Origin: Stenotrophomonas sp. BIGb0135
Lineage (GTDB): Bacteria > Pseudomonadota > Gammaproteobacteria > Xanthomonadales > Xanthomonadaceae
Direction of reading: 5' to 3'
Length of the DNA: 64,000 nucleotides
Assembly: GCF_024810105.1 (NCBI RefSeq)
Contig: NZ_JANUDX010000001.1
Coordinates: forward strand, 62,001-126,000
The notes under the pieces are model-generated. The model was not told where the DNA came from, did not search any database, and saw only the letters and a list, made by a program, of their open reading frames with translations. Below, one piece after another: positions 55,185-62,812 of the stretch (positions are counted from its first letter, which is position 1; the number at the start of each line of letters is the position of its first letter). A program made the position numbers and the translations under genes.

Positions 55185-55272
55185 CAATCATGTCTCCTTC
55201 GTGCGGGGCCGCGTGCCTTGCGGGGTCTGCGGCACCGGGGTGGAGCCTGCGTTGGCTGCTGCGCTGGTACCA

Positions 55273-55299
55273 GTATCGGCAGCGTTCGCGCTTTACTTG
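55273..55299 (-). promoter_or_regulatory. Possible sigma-28 promoter for fliS
   Basis: CAAG (55299-55296), 15 nt, GCCGATAC (55280-55273) on the - strand; a TAAA lies 4 nt closer, as upstream of ycgR. The -10 is good and the -35 weak. It lies in the short gap after fliD. Confidence 0.45.
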
Positions 55300-55317
55300 A
55301 GCAGGCGGCCGTGTCGA

Positions 55318-56700
55318 TCAACCGGCCAGCTGACTGAGCTGCGAGGTGAGCGACGACGTGGTCTGGCTCAGCTTGCCCATCAATGCATCCAGGGCCAGGA
55401 ACTGCTTCTTGTAGCGTTCCTCCACGCCGGCCATGCGCACGTCCAGCGCCGCGCGGCGCTTGTCGATGTCGGTCAGGGTGGCGTTGATGCTCTTGGTGCG
55501 CGAAACAAAGGCGCCTTCCTTGCCAACGGTGGTGCTGACATAGCCATCCACCATGTTGAACAGCTTGGTAGCCGCGCCGTCATCACCGGTCAGCGCCTGC
55601 CGTACCGCACCGGCCTGGTTGACCAGCGCCGCCTCGAACTTGGTGGCATCCAGCACCAGGCTGCCGTCGGCGTTGGGATAGGCGCGGGTCTGCAGACCCA
55701 GCGTCTTCGGGTCCAGGCCGACCGCGGCCAGGTCCTTGAGCACGCCGCCCATCATCGAGCGCAACTGGCTGGAGGCGCCGCGCATCTGCGCATCGCCGGT
55801 CAGCGAGGAGGGCTCCTTGTTCTCGATGTCGTACTTGGTGGCGGTGTTGATCGCGCTGATCGCACCGTTGTAGGCGGTGACGAAGTCCTGCATCACCTTG
55901 CGTGCCGCCGCCACGTCGGTGCTGACGGTGACGGTGGTGTCGCCCTTCTTCTTGAGGTTGAGGGTCAGGCCGGGAACCACGTCGGTGACGGTGTTCTCGC
56001 TGGACACCACGTCCACCCCGTCGATGGTGAGCTTGGCATCGGCGGCCGGGGTGCGTTCGGTCAGGCTGTTGGCCAGTGCGGTCAGCTCGGCATTGCCGGC
56101 ACCGGCGCTGAGCTTGATCGCATTGGCGGTGCCGGACTTCTCCTGCGACAACGACAGGTACTGGTTGTCGCCGGAGGCGATGAGGGTCGACTGTACGCCC
56201 AGGCTGCGGCCGGCCTTTTCGATCTTGGTGCGGATCGAGGACAGGGTGTCATCGGCCTCGACCTGGATCTCCAGCGTCTTCTTTTTGTCGCCCACGCCCA
56301 CGTCCAGCGTCAGGGTGCCGGCGCCGAAGGTCTTGGTCTTGGGCACCGCCGTGTCGGCGATCCACTTGTTGGCCGTGGCCAGCTGGTCGACGTGGATGAC
56401 ATGGTTGCCGGTGGCCGCCGAATTGGTGCTGGTGACCGTCAGGATGTCGTCGGTGCCGTCCTTGGTCGCACTGACCAGGCGGGCGTCGAACGCGGTCGAG
56501 GCCTTCAGCGCCTTCAATGAGGTGCTCAGCAGGTCGAACGCGGACTTGACCGTGCCCACTGCCGACAACTGCATCTTGGCTTTGGACTGCTGCAGGTTGA
56601 GTGCGTTGTCCGAAGGTTTGCGGTCTGCCGCCACCAGGCTGGCGACCATGCCGGAAATATCCAGTCCGGAACCGATGCCGCCGTAACCAAAGTCAGCCAC
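55318..56700 (-). CDS. fliD: Flagellar cap protein FliD
   Basis: 460 residues. The N-terminus (GIGSGLDISGMVASLVAADR) and C-terminal coiled region (RVEERYKKQFLALDALMGKL-like segment, ending LTSQLSQLAG) are FliD_N and FliD_C. GTG start at 56700 with AGGAG 8 nt upstream. A sigma-54 promoter lies about 100 nt upstream. Confidence 0.93.
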   Translation of the reverse strand: MADFGYGGIGSGLDISGMVASLVAADRKPSDNALNLQQSKAKMQLSAVGTVKSAFDLLSTSLKALKASTAFDARLVSATKDGTDDILTVTSTNSAATGNHVIHVDQLATANKWIADTAVPKTKTFGAGTLTLDVGVGDKKKTLEIQVEADDTLSSIRTKIEKAGRSLGVQSTLIASGDNQYLSLSQEKSGTANAIKLSAGAGNAELTALANSLTERTPAADAKLTIDGVDVVSSENTVTDVVPGLTLNLKKKGDTTVTVSTDVAAARKVMQDFVTAYNGAISAINTATKYDIENKEPSSLTGDAQMRGASSQLRSMMGGVLKDLAAVGLDPKTLGLQTRAYPNADGSLVLDATKFEAALVNQAGAVRQALTGDDGAATKLFNMVDGYVSTTVGKEGAFVSRTKSINATLTDIDKRRAALDVRMAGVEERYKKQFLALDALMGKLSQTTSSLTSQLSQLAG

Positions 56701-57147: not shown

Positions 57148-58308
57148 TCAGCGCAGCAGGCTGAGCACGTTCTGCGGCACCTGGTTGGCCTGGGCCAGCA
57201 TGGCCGTACCGGCCTGCTGCAGGATCTGGGTGCGGGTCAGCTCTGCGGTTTCCTTGGCGAAATCGGTGTCCTTGATGCGGCTACGCGACGCGGACAGGTT
57301 TTCCGAGGAGGTCTGCAGGTTGGCAACGACCGAGGTGAAGCGGTTCTGGATCGCACCGAGGTCGGCACGGGTGTTGTTGATCGAGCTCAGCGCCTTGTCA
57401 ACGATTTCCAGCGCCTGCTGGGCACCCTTCACGGTGGACACGTCGATCTTGTCGGCGAACTGCTTGGTCGGGACCGTGGTGTTGCCGGCCAGCGTGATGT
57501 CGGTACCGCTCAGCTGCACGACGGCGCCGTCCTTGTCGACGCTGTCCTTGACCGAGGTCAGGGTCAGGGCGCCGGTGGTGGCATCGGCTTCGGCATAGAT
57601 GCCGGTTTCGCCGATCTTGGCGTTGATGTGCGCGGCCAGCGACTGGCCGGCCTTGGCGGTGGTGGTCTCGGTCAGCTTCAGCTCGGCGAAGGACACCGTG
57701 CCCGACGCGCTGGTCAGGCTGAACGCGGCGACCGTCGAGGTGCCGTCGGCGGCGACCGTCGGGGCAGCGGCGGTGGCGGTGACGAACTGCGCGCCGCCCA
57801 GGGCGTCGGCCTTGGCGTCCACGACCTTGTCGATGGCGATGGCCTGGCCGGCGTTGGCGCCGACCTGGAACAGCTGGCTGGAGAACGAGCCGTCCAGCAG
57901 CTTGGTGCCGTTGAAGTCGGACTGCTTGGCGACGCGGTCGATTTCGCTGACCAGCTGGGTGACTTCGGCCTGCAGGGCCTTGCGGTCGCTGGCGGAGTTG
58001 GTGGCGTTGGAGGCCTGCACCGACAGTTCGCGGACGCGCTGCAGGTTGTTGCCGATTTCGGTCAGCGAACCTTCGGCGACCTGGGCCAGCGAGATGCCGT
58101 CGTTGGCGTTGCGGATGGCCACGTCGGTACCGCGGATCTGGGTGCCGAAGCGCTCGGAGATGGCCAGGCCGGCCGCATCGTCCTTGGCGCTGTTGATGCG
58201 CGAGCCGGAGGACAGGCGCTGGATGGTGGTGGCCAGGGAGCTGCCGCTGGTGCTCAGGTTGCGCTGAGCATTCAACGACATCGTGTTGGTGTTGATGACT
58301 TGTGCCAT
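57148..58308 (-). CDS. fliC: Flagellin (third in transcription order)
   Basis: 386 residues. N-terminal D0/D1 (MAQVINTNTMSLNAQRNLST to about 165) and C-terminal D1/D0 (RADLGAIQNRFTSVVANLQT to VPQNVLSLLR) are conserved; the middle (about 175-290) differs from the other copies. The ends are almost identical in DNA to the gene at 58389. Ribosome site AAGGAA precedes the ATG. Confidence 0.95.
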   Translation of the reverse strand: MAQVINTNTMSLNAQRNLSTSGSSLATTIQRLSSGSRINSAKDDAAGLAISERFGTQIRGTDVAIRNANDGISLAQVAEGSLTEIGNNLQRVRELSVQASNATNSASDRKALQAEVTQLVSEIDRVAKQSDFNGTKLLDGSFSSQLFQVGANAGQAIAIDKVVDAKADALGGAQFVTATAAAPTVAADGTSTVAAFSLTSASGTVSFAELKLTETTTAKAGQSLAAHINAKIGETGIYAEADATTGALTLTSVKDSVDKDGAVVQLSGTDITLAGNTTVPTKQFADKIDVSTVKGAQQALEIVDKALSSINNTRADLGAIQNRFTSVVANLQTSSENLSASRSRIKDTDFAKETAELTRTQILQQAGTAMLAQANQVPQNVLSLLR

Positions 58309-58351
58309 GGAAATTCCTTCAGGCGTGGGTGGTGCGTGAGACGTTGGAAGC

Positions 58352-58372
58352 GGCGCCGGTCAATCCGGCGCC
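58352..58372. other. Hairpin between flagellin genes
   Basis: GGCGCCGG-TCAAT-CCGGCGCC, an 8-bp stem, in the 80-bp gap. No T-run and no sigma-28 motif in this gap. Confidence 0.6.
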
Positions 58373-58388
58373 GCCGGGCAGGCGTGGA

Positions 58389-59564
58389 TCAGCGCAGCAG
58401 GCTGAGCACGTTCTGCGGCACCTGGTTGGCCTGGGCCAGCATGGCCGTACCGGCCTGCTGCAGGATCTGGGTGCGGGTCAGCTCTGCGGTTTCCTTGGCG
58501 AAATCGGTGTCCTTGATGCGGCTGCGCGACGCGGACAGGTTTTCCGAGGAGGTCTGCAGGTTGGCAACGACCGAGGTGAAGCGGTTCTGGATGGCACCGA
58601 GGTCGGCGCGGGTGTTGTTGATCGCACCCAGGGCCTTGTCGACGATTTCCAGGGCCTGCTGGGCGCCCTTCACGGTGGACACGTCGATCTTGTCGGCGAA
58701 CTGCTTGCCGTCGGCCGGATCGGTGGCGGCGAAGCCGGCCAGGGTGCTGGCGATGTCCTGGAACGCGCCATCGGCGTCGACGCTGTCCTTGACCGAGGTC
58801 AGGGTCAGGGCGCCGGCGTCATCGGCTTCGGCGTAAACGCCGGTTTCGCCGATCTTGGCGTTGATCGCGGCAGCCACGGCCTTGCCGTTGGCGGCGGTGT
58901 TGGCAGCCACGTCACCCACGCTCTTGACGGTCTGCGCGGCGAAGTTGACCACTGCGCCCTTGCTGTCGGTGATGGTGAAGGCGGCGATATCGGTATCGGT
59001 ATCGGCCACGCCGGCAATCGCGGTGGCGGTGCCGCTGGAGAACTGCGCGCCGCCCAGGGCATTGGCCTTGGCGTCCACGACCTTGTCGATGGCGATGGCC
59101 TGGCCGGCGTTGGCGCCGACCTGGAACAGCTGGCTGGAGAAGGAGCCGTCCAGCAGCTTGGTGCCGTTGAAGTCGGACTGCTTGGCGACGCGGTCGATTT
59201 CGCTGACCAGCTGGGTGACTTCGGCCTGCAGGGCCTTGCGGTCGCTGGCGGAGTTGGTGGCGTTGGAGGCCTGCACCGACAGTTCACGGACGCGCTGCAG
59301 GTTGTTGCCGATTTCGGTCAGCGAGCCTTCGGCGACCTGGGCCAGCGAGATGCCGTCGTTGGCGTTGCGGATGGCCACGTCGGTACCGCGGATCTGGGTG
59401 CCGAAGCGCTCGGAGATGGCCAGGCCGGCCGCGTCGTCCTTGGCGCTGTTGATGCGCGAGCCGGAGGACAGGCGCTGGATGGTGGTGGCCAGGGAGCTGC
59501 CGCTGGTGCTCAGGTTGCGCTGAGCATTCAACGACATCGTGTTGGTGTTGATGACTTGTGCCAT
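58389..59564 (-). CDS. fliC: Flagellin (second in transcription order)
   Basis: 391 residues. Residues 1-175 match the copy at 57148 apart from one substitution near the end, and the last 90 differ at about two positions. The variable middle (ATAIAGVADTDTDIAAFTIT, FQDIASTLAGFAATDPADGK) is unique. No promoter motif is visible in the 71-bp gap before it. Confidence 0.95.
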   Translation of the reverse strand: MAQVINTNTMSLNAQRNLSTSGSSLATTIQRLSSGSRINSAKDDAAGLAISERFGTQIRGTDVAIRNANDGISLAQVAEGSLTEIGNNLQRVRELSVQASNATNSASDRKALQAEVTQLVSEIDRVAKQSDFNGTKLLDGSFSSQLFQVGANAGQAIAIDKVVDAKANALGGAQFSSGTATAIAGVADTDTDIAAFTITDSKGAVVNFAAQTVKSVGDVAANTAANGKAVAAAINAKIGETGVYAEADDAGALTLTSVKDSVDADGAFQDIASTLAGFAATDPADGKQFADKIDVSTVKGAQQALEIVDKALGAINNTRADLGAIQNRFTSVVANLQTSSENLSASRSRIKDTDFAKETAELTRTQILQQAGTAMLAQANQVPQNVLSLLR

Positions 59565-59604
59565 GAGGAGAGGTCCTTGAGCAGTGCACGTACGATGGGT
59601 TAGA

Positions 59605-59628
59605 CGCTCCTGACGTGCTTCAGGAGCG
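59605..59628. other. Hairpin between flagellin genes
   Basis: CGCTCCTGA and TCAGGAGCG pair around a short loop (59605-59628) just beyond the stop of the first flagellin. No T-run follows. Confidence 0.6.
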
Positions 59629-59635
59629 GCTCATG

Positions 59636-60802
59636 TCAGCGCTGCAACAGGCTGAGCACGTTCTGTGGAACCTGGTTGGCCTGGGCCAGCATCGCGGTGC
59701 CGGCCTGTTGCAGGATCTGGGTACGGGTGAGTTCCGCGGTTTCCTTGGCGAAATCGGTATCGCGGATGCGGCTGCGCGATGCCGACAGGTTTTCCGAGGA
59801 GGTCTGCAGATTGGCCACCACGGAGGTGAAGCGGTTCTGGATGGCGCCGAGGTCGGCGCGGACGCTGTTGACCGATTCCAGTGCCTTGTCGACGATTTCC
59901 AGCGCCTTCTGCGCACCGACGTAGGACGAGACGTCCAGGTCCTGCACGAAGCTGGAGGTGGCCGTGGCGGCAACCGAGCTGGGGGCGGCGACGGTGGAGT
60001 CGGCCAGGCCCAGCTGGGTGGCGCCGGTGATGACGAGGTCGCGGTCGGCCTGGACCGAGGTCAGCTTCAGGCGCTGGGTATCGGGGGTGCCGGCGGTGGT
60101 GACGACTTCGGCGTAGACACCGGCTTCGCCGATCTGGGTGTTGATCTGGGCGGCCGCGGAGGCGGCGAACTCGGCGGTGGTCTTGCCGCTGATCGTGCCG
60201 AGGGTGATGCCGTTGATGGTGACGCCGGTCAGGTCGGTGATGGTGGCGATGTCGGCGGTGCTGTCGACCGGGGGGGCAAACTTGGCGTTGCCCAGCGAGC
60301 TGGCCTTGGCGTCGACGACGCTGTTGATGGCGATGGCCTGGCCGGCATTGGCGCCCACCTGGAACAGCTGGCTGGTGAAGCTGCCGTCCAGCAGCTTGGT
60401 GCCGTTGAAGTCGGACTGCTTGGCGACGCGGTCGATTTCGCTGACCAGCTGGGTGACTTCAGCCTGCAGGGCCTTGCGGTCGCTGGCGGAGTTGGTAGCG
60501 TTGGAGGCCTGCACGGCGAGTTCGCGGACGCGCTGCAGGTTGTTGCCGATTTCGCTCAGGGAGCCTTCGGCGACCTGGGCCAGCGAGATGCCATCGTTGG
60601 CATTGCGGATGGCCACGTCGGTGCCGCGGATCTGGGTGCCGAAGCGCTCGCTGATGGCCAGGCCGGCGGCGTCGTCCTTCGCGCTGTTGATGCGCAGGCC
60701 GGACGAGAGGCGCTGGATGGTGGTAGCGAGCGAGCTGCCGCTGGTGCTCAGGTTGCGCTGAGCGTTGAGCGACATCGTATTGGTGTTGATTACCTGTGCC
60801 AT
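59636..60802 (-). CDS. fliC: Flagellin (first in transcription order)
   Basis: 388 residues. It differs from the other two throughout the conserved ends (for example SSGLRINSAKDDAAG, GSLSEIGNNLQRVRELAVQA, LSLLQR end) and has its own middle (ATITDLTGVTINGITLGTIS). It alone has a consensus sigma-28 promoter. The ATG has GGGAG upstream. Confidence 0.95.
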   Translation of the reverse strand: MAQVINTNTMSLNAQRNLSTSGSSLATTIQRLSSGLRINSAKDDAAGLAISERFGTQIRGTDVAIRNANDGISLAQVAEGSLSEIGNNLQRVRELAVQASNATNSASDRKALQAEVTQLVSEIDRVAKQSDFNGTKLLDGSFTSQLFQVGANAGQAIAINSVVDAKASSLGNAKFAPPVDSTADIATITDLTGVTINGITLGTISGKTTAEFAASAAAQINTQIGEAGVYAEVVTTAGTPDTQRLKLTSVQADRDLVITGATQLGLADSTVAAPSSVAATATSSFVQDLDVSSYVGAQKALEIVDKALESVNSVRADLGAIQNRFTSVVANLQTSSENLSASRSRIRDTDFAKETAELTRTQILQQAGTAMLAQANQVPQNVLSLLQR

Positions 60803-60921: not shown

Positions 60922-61050
60922 GGCGGAAATTTCGCTGAGGCTGTCTGGTGGGCCATCCGGGGCCATGGCGGGCTTGCCGGACATAAGGGTTAACGGCATG
61001 GAAAGCGGGAATTCAAGGGGTTTTTTGATGTTCATGGCCAGGTCTGGGGC

Positions 61051-61085
61051 CGGAGCCCGGAGCCCGGAGCCCGGAGCCCGGAGCC
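61051..61085. repeat. 7-bp tandem repeat (CCGGAGC)5
   Basis: CCCGGAG-type heptamer repeated about 4.5 times, followed by CACAGC/AACAGC hexamers to about 61108. It lies between the flagellin promoter and element B; no gene is seen in 60922-61143. Confidence 0.75.
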
Positions 61086-61143
61086 ACAGCCACAGCAACA
61101 GCAACGGCAGAAGCATCAGGTCTGCCGCAGCTGGGGGAGGGCT

Positions 61144-61240
61144 GGCACGGGTGGGTTGGCGGGACACGCCGTAAATACGTCCTTGTAGGCTCGCATGCGC
61201 CATCCATGGCGCATGACGGTCCCGCCAACCCACCCGTGCC
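61144..61240 (-). repeat. Structured element B, copy 1
   Basis: 22-nt perfect inverted arms (61144-61165 and 61219-61240) around a 53-nt core. On the - strand the core has hairpin CATGCGCCAT-GG-ATGGCGCATG, a second small stem TAC/GTA, and TTTACGGCGT. It is inverted relative to copy 2. Confidence 0.82.
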
Positions 61241-61383
61241 ACCCCTTTGACAGGGGGCGGGTGCGCAAGGAAAGAGCCGTGTGAGTTGCTGGCTGGCGAA
61301 CATGCTGTTCGTCGCTCTGTCGCTCTGTCGCGCTACCGCTCTACCGCTCTTCGGCTCTGCACAGGCCACCGGTCAACTGTCGA

Positions 61384-61490
61384 GGGCGGGGGTGTGTGGG
61401 TTCGCGGGACCGTCACACGCCATGGATGGCGTGTGCGAGCCCCCATGGATGGGTTTACGGCGTGTCCCGCGAACCCACACACCCCCGCCC
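61384..61490 (+). repeat. Structured element B, copy 2
   Basis: 27-nt perfect inverted arms (61384-61410 and 61464-61490) around a 53-nt core with hairpin CACACGCCAT-GG-ATGGCGTGTG, a second stem CCCAT/ATGGG and TTTACGGCGT. The core has the same length as copy 1. Confidence 0.82.
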
Positions 61491-61546: not shown

Positions 61547-61582
61547 AAAAAAGCCGCGATGCTCAACGCATCGCGGCTTTTT
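61547..61582 (-). terminator. Rho-independent terminator after flgL
   Basis: GCCGCGATGC-TCAAC-GCATCGCGGC (61553-61577), a 10-bp stem, with six A before it and five T after it; on the - strand six T follow the stem. It lies 28 nt beyond flgL's stop. Confidence 0.9.
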
Positions 61583-61609: not shown

Positions 61610-62812
61610 TCAGCGCAACACGTTGAACAACGACATCTGCTGCATCTGCGAGAACAGCGTCTGCGCGGCCTGGAGGGCAGTGCTCTCCAGCTGGTACTGA
61701 CTGATCGCATCGGCGTAGTCCAGATCGCGCATCTGCGAGAGCGTGCTCTTGAGCGTCACCGTATTGGACTCGCGCATGTCCGCCGCATTGTCCAGCGCCT
61801 TCAACTGCGCACCACCGGCCGCACGCGAGTCGATCATCCGCTCCGAGGCCCGCGCAACGTCACGCAGACCGCTTTGCAGCAGATTCTGCTGTGCCGCCGA
61901 CTTGGCCGCGCTGCCGGTGTCCATTTTCAGCGACCCGATCAGACTGTCCAACGTGCTGAAGATATCCCGGCTCGTCGCCGGACTGACCTCGAAGGTATCG
62001 CCGGCCGCCGGCTTGCCGTCGATGTGCAGACGTACCCCGTTGAGCACCAGATCGTCGCCCGCCTTCATCGTCCCGGTGGACACCACCGTACCGCCGGCAT
62101 CCAGCAGCTCGTACTGGTCTTCGGCGGTGAAGCGCACACTGAAGCCCTGGCCGTTCCAGCTGTCGCTGCCGTCGCGGGTCACGTTGGTCAGCACGCCCGT
62201 GCCAGTGTTCGCCGTGCTGGCCGCCCCATCCACGTGCCCATCGCCCGTACCGATCCGCAGGAAAATCTCGCTGCCGGGCAGGGCATCGAGCACGTACGTG
62301 TCCGGCCCGACCTCGACCTGGCGCTGGTTCTGGTCGCCGTTGTAGACCACCTTGCCATCGATCTGGCTGAACGGCGGGCTGTCATCGGCCGTCCCGCCGA
62401 ACAGATAGCGCCCGGTGCCGTCGGTGCTGTTGGCCAGCGCCAGCAGGTTGCCGCGGATCGCCTCGATTTCGGTCACCATCGACTGCTTGTCCGACGCCGC
62501 CAGCGCCGGGTTGTTGGCGTAAATCGTCAATTCGGTGATGCGCCCCATCATGTCGCCGACCTGGGCCAGCGCGTTTTCCTGCAGGCCCAGCCGGTTCTGC
62601 ACGTTGCCCGCGTTGAGCTGCATGCGGTCCAGCGAGGCCAGGGTGCGGTCCAGGCCCACGGCGGCGCCGGAGGCGACCGGGTCGTCCTTGGCGGTCACCA
62701 GCCGGCGGCCGGTGGCGATCTGCTGTTCCAGGTGGCTCATCTTGGCCTGCTTGGCCATCATCAACGACACCGACTGCTGGAACATCATCCCGGTGGAAAT
62801 GCGGCTGTTCAT
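61610..62812 (-). CDS. flgL: Flagellar hook-filament junction protein FlgL (HAP3)
   Basis: 400 residues with flagellin-like ends: MNSRISTGMMFQQSVSLMMA and DLDYADAISQYQLESTALQA, FSQMQQMSLFNVLR. The middle is a beta-rich domain. ATGA couples it to flgK. It ends the flg operon at a strong terminator. Confidence 0.93.
   Translation of the reverse strand: MNSRISTGMMFQQSVSLMMAKQAKMSHLEQQIATGRRLVTAKDDPVASGAAVGLDRTLASLDRMQLNAGNVQNRLGLQENALAQVGDMMGRITELTIYANNPALAASDKQSMVTEIEAIRGNLLALANSTDGTGRYLFGGTADDSPPFSQIDGKVVYNGDQNQRQVEVGPDTYVLDALPGSEIFLRIGTGDGHVDGAASTANTGTGVLTNVTRDGSDSWNGQGFSVRFTAEDQYELLDAGGTVVSTGTMKAGDDLVLNGVRLHIDGKPAAGDTFEVSPATSRDIFSTLDSLIGSLKMDTGSAAKSAAQQNLLQSGLRDVARASERMIDSRAAGGAQLKALDNAADMRESNTVTLKSTLSQMRDLDYADAISQYQLESTALQAAQTLFSQMQQMSLFNVLR

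Follow-up and report, generated by a model that had tools for sequence, protein, structure and literature searches.

Two divergent copies of a dispersed structured repeat between flagellin and flgL genes of Stenotrophomonas: candidate CsrA/RsmA sites in a relative of YPAL/RU-2, Ysr224 and TwoAYGGAY

What is the inverted repeat that stands twice, in opposite orientations, between a flagellin gene and flgL in Stenotrophomonas sp. BIGb0135? The window, the whole stretch of 64,000 nucleotides that was analysed, had been described in the original prediction as holding here a mobile or functional structured repeat, perhaps a complex REP-like or RNA element. The location given is correct: the adjoining genes, named from their translations, are flagellin (59636-60802) and flgL (61610-62812), both on the minus strand. 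Copy 1 extends from 61138 to 61246 with its GGA strand, the strand whose hairpin loops contain GGA, on the minus strand, and copy 2 extends from 61384 to 61490 with its GGA strand on the plus strand. Each copy is an inverted repeat; the arms of copy 1 (61138-61165 and 61219-61246) are 28 nt long and 96% complementary, those of copy 2 (61384-61410 and 61464-61490) are 27 nt long and 100% complementary, and the cores between them are, as had been noted, equal in length at exactly 53 nt. Two covariance models, R1 from copies of this genome and R2 from more diverse copies, score copy 1 at 124.7 and 103.2 bits and copy 2 at 126.2 and 105.4 bits, respectively. The spacer of the pair (61247-61383) carries a GACAG / CTGTC motif at its start and end, and the same motif is present inside many pairs elsewhere in the genome.

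The surroundings of the pair contain further repeats. Short CCGGAGCC repeats adjoin copy 1 at 61050-61078, and simple repeats such as GCAACAGCAACAGC flank many copies across the genome. At 61548-61582, a perfect 15-bp inverted repeat followed by a T run on the minus strand is the likely terminator of flgL, and three flagellin-like genes, almost identical at their starts and ends, lie in tandem at 57148-60802. At gathering scores, Rfam returned no match in the window and tRNAs as the only matches in 18 related loci; weak matches in the window to microRNA and other families were read as chance fits to the long hairpin.

The structure of the core can be judged from the changes between copies. Comparison of the two 53-nt cores on the GGA strand shows 10 differences: eight make up four compensating pairs, and two are isolated substitutions within one loop (AAGGAC versus ATGGAT). 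The two compensating pairs proposed for the GCGCCATGGATGGCGC hairpin are both present, as is one further pair in the arm near GCGGGAC, and the segments said to be kept, TGCGAG, GGA and TTTACGGCGT, are all conserved between the copies. The hairpin with TAC/GTA in one copy and CCC/GGG in the other also shows compensating change, but the number of changed pairs is two instead of the three claimed: both copies have C-G as the third pair.

The same pattern extends to larger sets. Alignment A2, comprising 32 of the 33 copies in alignment A1 (one near-identical tandem copy was left out), pairs in 95.6% of cells, and 33 of its 42 pairs show two-sided change; R1 was likewise built from 32 of 33 clean copies of this genome. 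None of 500 shuffles reached the observed covariation values, a result that is no strict probability because the copies are related; in slid controls the share of paired cells is 34.7-47.4%. Alignment A6, the basis of R2, consists of 40 of the 46 rows of alignment A5, after removal of the misaligned L243, of L140, L150 and L132, and of two rows of L160. In these 40 diverse copies 91.4% of cells are paired, and two-sided change is seen at 29 of 32 pairs; 54 of 500 shuffles reached the observed count of pair types, but none reached any other measure. Throughout the 32 and the 40 copies the changes thus preserve base pairing, the opposite of the pattern that had been named as counting against the prediction. 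Bases 1 and 4 of the five-base bulge covary as well (TA 18 and CG 14 in A2, n = 32; TA 31, CG 8 and GT 1 in A6, n = 40), which may reflect one linked change.

The element is not confined to the window. A BLAST search of the genome with copy 1 gave 57 matches, counting reverse-strand echoes, and the covariance-model search that had been proposed as a check found, with R1, 43 strong copies (>60 bits) and some weaker ones, among which the copies used for R1 match it by construction. At E <= 0.001, R1 has matches in 50 of the 149 genomes searched within the bacterial family of the window, spread over 19 of 54 genera. Scanning for the loop pattern identified at least 117 stretches; 35 of the 80 listed loci are titled Stenotrophomonas, others include Marinobacter, Oceanisphaera, Oceanimonas, Microbulbifer, Haliea, Salinivibrio and Shewanella, and the best-scoring of those listed under R1 is from S. 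rhizophila. On the pattern-scan loci, R1 gave 167 matches, of which 150 were aligned and 122 do not overlap; 85 of the latter fit the search pattern and 37 do not, the 37 falling to 36 once a false match (L105:240) was dropped. R2 matches in 72 of 369 genomes of the class of the window at E <= 1e-4, and at E <= 1e-5 in 32 of 398 genomes of the phylum, all 32 belonging to that class, whose share of the 398 is not given. In both R2 searches scoring was limited to 11 candidates per genome, so the copy numbers are lower bounds. A distant BLAST search of E. coli genomes, plasmids and phages with the window copy returned no match, and viral contigs contained no exact match to the loop pattern. Two Stenotrophomonas-like copies lie in records titled Bacillus subtilis (L167, 119.2 bits) and Klebsiella pneumoniae (L145, 60.7 bits), perhaps mislabelled or mixed assemblies.

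The most constant part of the core is its pair of loops. As derived from the sequence, the long hairpin carries the hexaloop AUGGAU in copy 1 (61202-61207, minus strand) and in copy 2 (61422-61427, plus strand), and the short hairpin carries AAGGAC in copy 1 (61179-61184, minus strand) and AUGGAU in copy 2 (61445-61450, plus strand). ANGGAN is the hexaloop bound by RsmE (PMC7652899), and loops of this type, with GGA in a hairpin, place the element with CsrA/RsmA-binding RNAs in this respect. Pooled over two sets, 138 of 144 loops that were not picked by the loop pattern read ANGGAN, although these counts are somewhat biased because R1 and R2 contain the loops. Of the 72 loops in the 36 elements outside the loop pattern, 70 have the hexaloop, including those on wholly different stems, and the other two contain insertions; in 36 elements from 31 loci of a separate genome set it is found in 68 of 72. 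The closing C-G pair is present too in 68 loops of each set. In A6, whose loci were mostly found with a pattern containing the loops, ANGGAN occurs in 40 of 40 copies in each hairpin. The N positions of the loop vary, and A and GGA are invariant. Other hairpin sequence is inserted within one GGA loop at L139:1907-2088, at L146:4314-4472 and in L213.

The spacing of the loops and the protein content of the genome can be set beside what is known of CsrA. In copy 2 the GGA triplets start at 61424 and 61447, leaving 20 nt between them, which falls within the 10-63 nt over which one dimer can bridge two sites (PMC7652899). The genome contains three CsrA-family matches, the best at 91 bits. The CsrA SELEX consensus is RUACARGGAUGU (PMC7652899), next to which one genome copy (L018, other strand) reads UUACAAGGAUGUA.

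Which strand matters can be approached through the wobble pairs of the arms. Mismatches of the G.T and C.A types were counted there; a G.T on one strand is a C.A on its complement. The two should therefore be of similar frequency if pairing within the duplex were all that mattered, and the observed counts differ. G.T on the GGA strand is favoured by 37 to 4 in the outer arms of the copies of this genome (759 cells), by 136 to 37 in 110 elements of the pattern-scan loci (2637 cells, with 186 other mismatches) and by 13 to 2 in 36 elements of the separate genome set (648 cells). The 110 elements are those left of 121 once short elements, and elements with under 14 Watson-Crick pairs in their arms, had been excluded. 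Both they and the 36 were aligned or found with GGA-strand models; the p value of 1.7e-14 for 136 versus 37 is not exact, because the copies are related. On the non-GGA strand, hairpin 1 has 17 G.T cells, at a position that the GGA-strand model treats as loop. Since G.T favours the GGA strand in arms that otherwise vary freely, this strand probably acts in single-stranded form. Together with the conservation of the loops, the asymmetry lends indirect support, from comparison of sequences, to the earlier suggestion of an RNA element.

Neighbouring copies are arranged in a regular way. In the 80 listed loci, the GGA strands diverge in all 33 pairs of neighbours less than 700 nt apart, the spacers being 27-394 nt long, and an Enterobacter plasmid likewise carries a divergent pair. 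In this genome 10 of 11 close pairs of strong copies are divergent (13 of 14 when weak copies are included), the exception being a tandem triple on contig C8, where three copies of the same orientation stand about 227 bp apart (55196-55759) and a GTAG-type palindrome follows each. Contrary to a strict pairing rule, L249 and L254 hold convergent neighbours more than 800 nt apart around a reading frame. At L254:1501-2512, a GGA-strand copy ends about 35 nt upstream of a co-directional frame and an inverted copy comes after the frame. An autonomous version of the element with a mobilising gene was considered for such loci and rejected, because these long convergent neighbours enclose ordinary frames, SDR-like in L254 and Sel1-repeat-like in L249 (named from translations alone).

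Judged by its sequence and fold, the element is a relative of three described families, YPAL/RU-2, Ysr224 and TwoAYGGAY, rather than a new kind. YPAL/RU-2, of 167-168 bp in Yersinia, is known from Yersinia and Erwinia carotovora (PMC2229807); the printed RU-2 core (PMC2759123) aligns with the element over both hairpins and their loops, so that the conserved core sequence and fold are shared. With RU-2 as query, 17 enterobacterial plasmids match, and R1, built from this genome only, finds all three of the RU-2-matching plasmids that were fetched (E 3e-14 to 7e-8). The arms and ends of YPAL/RU-2 differ from those of the element, and the flanking motifs of the element itself are conserved within Stenotrophomonas and different between genera. 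Passages on YPAL consulted in papers later than the original 2006 description mention neither divergent pairs nor CsrA-type loops.

The two Rfam families are related to the element in different ways. Ysr224 (RF02770), reported to be multi-copy and transcribed in Y. ruckeri (PMC12112432), aligns to the core but models the opposite (TCC) strand. At E <= 10, 44 of its 50 matches in this genome lie on element copies and 41 of the 43 strong copies are matched, a threshold at which 9 of 14 control genomes also show matches; scores stay below the cut-off of 70 bits (32.4 in the window, 40.2 at best in the genome). TwoAYGGAY (RF01731) describes the GGA strand: an outer stem of low conservation carries two hairpins with AYGGAY loops, and these loops had led others to propose it as a ligand of CsrA (PMC4333381). 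Its anatomy is that of the window copies, with loop pairs AUGGAU/AAGGAC and AUGGAU/AUGGAU, apart from the A in place of Y in AAGGAC. A window copy reaches 28 bits in one search and is absent from the match list of another, against a cut-off of 43 bits, and no match to RF01731 was obtained in this genome at E <= 0.01; among 28 genomes, seven have matches at that threshold and one above the cut-off, and none of 14 controls does. In the reverse direction, of 10 RF01731 loci that were fetched, R2 recovers 9, on the identical strand and at the identical place. As the window copies score below both cut-offs, the element is treated as a relative of the Rfam entries, not as a member. No paper was found that joins any of the three names, in a literature consisting mostly of papers accessible without subscription. 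CsrB, the RsmX/Y/Z-type RNAs and RsmU of Xanthomonas campestris, which is processed from a 3' UTR (PMC7694677), likewise carry GGA hairpins with proposed or shown CsrA/RsmA binding. They are, however, single small-RNA loci, whereas the element is a dispersed repeat with two sites.

Evidence on mobility comes from dispersal and from the flgL site. Among 30 loci compared there, including that of the window (one locus, L235, is incomplete and another, L233, lacks a clear fliC), the element is present in this genome as a pair and in L213 as one copy with a loop insertion; the flgL-adjoining stretch of 27 other loci contains no core, and L234 and L236 have loose matches outside the intergenic part. 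Dispersal and this near absence speak for the claimed mobility, without a mapped insertion: the fliC-flgL flanks of relatives have diverged so strongly that insertion ends and a target duplication cannot be fixed from them. As for an empty site on enterobacterial plasmids, at least 15 records span the region, with the element present in those that match RU-2; the other matches listed in that search are an IS5-type element. That the arms are the dyad of the insertion target was rejected as a general rule, since many copies in the genome have identical arms, which implies that the arms travel with the core. At L114:255-1924 a longer inverted motif (GGAAACACTGATTAA-like) encloses two copies and may mark the termini of a different transposable element. 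CAGGGGC...GCCCCTG palindromes stand on either side of the copy on a Klebsiella plasmid (L242:1470-1700) and may be a duplicated dyad-symmetric target. The REP-like part of the original prediction is not supported. The element resembles REP sequences as dispersed palindromes in inverted pairs, but none of the three Y1_Tnp matches of the genome (RAYT-type genes at L031, L032 and L033), the check that had been suggested, has a copy of the core within 1.5 kb on either side; each lies amid its own GTAG-type palindromes, and the element has no adjacent RAYT. The repeat is, as had been proposed, structured and dispersed, with 43 strong copies and pairing kept.

The explanation to which we give an even chance is that of a mobile-type repeat of Gammaproteobacteria whose transcribed GGA strand binds CsrA/RsmA at these candidate sites. 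In a GGA-strand transcript, the long outer stem would display two adjacent hairpins with ANGGAN hexaloops about 20 nt apart, and a CsrA/RsmA homodimer, with one RNA pocket per subunit, could clamp both together. As the arms would need only to pair, their sequence could drift under compensatory selection, and a divergent pair would ensure that a transcript from either side carries one GGA-strand element. Transcription of this strand, CsrA binding and its consequence, which might be CsrA titration or local control of the neighbouring mRNA, are steps that we infer. Against this explanation, the predicted folds, including the long hairpin and the outer stem, are very stable, and very stable hairpins are possibly poor CsrA sites (PMC7652899); Ysr224, for which transcripts are reported, is modelled on the TCC strand.

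The main rival, which we consider distinctly less probable though a serious contender, is a non-autonomous MITE- or REPIN-like element whose transposition would involve folding of the GGA strand as single-stranded DNA. A putative transposase would recognise the hairpins and loops, the divergent pair would be the mobile unit, and any effect on RNA would be incidental. Dispersal and the strict divergent pairing suit such a signal, as does the wobble asymmetry, which a single-stranded-DNA signal would produce equally, and YPAL is MITE-like, with target duplications of 3-26 bp and both filled and empty sites (PMC2229807). The three Y1_Tnp matches, however, sit amid other palindromes, the two long neighbouring pairs enclose ordinary reading frames, and transposition alone leaves the match of both loops to the CsrA recognition loop unexplained. 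The stability that weighs against CsrA would fit a 3'-end stabiliser or terminator, in which transcripts would be shielded or terminated by the long stem, with the core as no more than a stable loop; YPAL affects the stability of upstream transcripts according to reviews (PMC2229807), and the copy sits between convergent genes on two of the three fetched plasmids. Such a role has no need of fixed loops or single-stranded core bases, and with a terminator-like repeat of its own already at 61548-61582 in the window, we regard it as improbable. Least credible, and very improbable in our judgement, is a mutational by-product in which strand-switch repair keeps palindromes perfect without a selected function. 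The outer arms in A1, where two-sided changes are far commoner than one-sided ones and neighbouring pairs often change jointly, agree with it, but it predicts neither the strand asymmetry of the wobbles nor the conserved loops.

If the CsrA/RsmA reading is taken further, YPAL, Ysr224 and TwoAYGGAY may together form a single mobile family, pan-gammaproteobacterial in range, that disperses ready-made dual docking sites for CsrA/RsmA among intergenic regions, for the most part in divergent pairs, a proposal that we advance tentatively and at less than even confidence. If true, the transposable palindrome and the sRNA family of Yersinia, though separately named, would belong to one family with the candidate CsrA ligand, and one Rfam entry would model the strand disfavoured by the wobble pattern. 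The element would be a transposable CsrA sponge or rewiring module, a mobile repeat bringing the binding sites of a global post-transcriptional regulator to dozens of places in one genome. In the Xanthomonadaceae, homologues of RsmB have been reported missing (PMC3937308), and one RsmA-binding RNA, RsmU, was described later (PMC7694677). In this family the element could supply an RsmA-titrating RNA, and its copies would provide a concrete list of loci in which to search for one.
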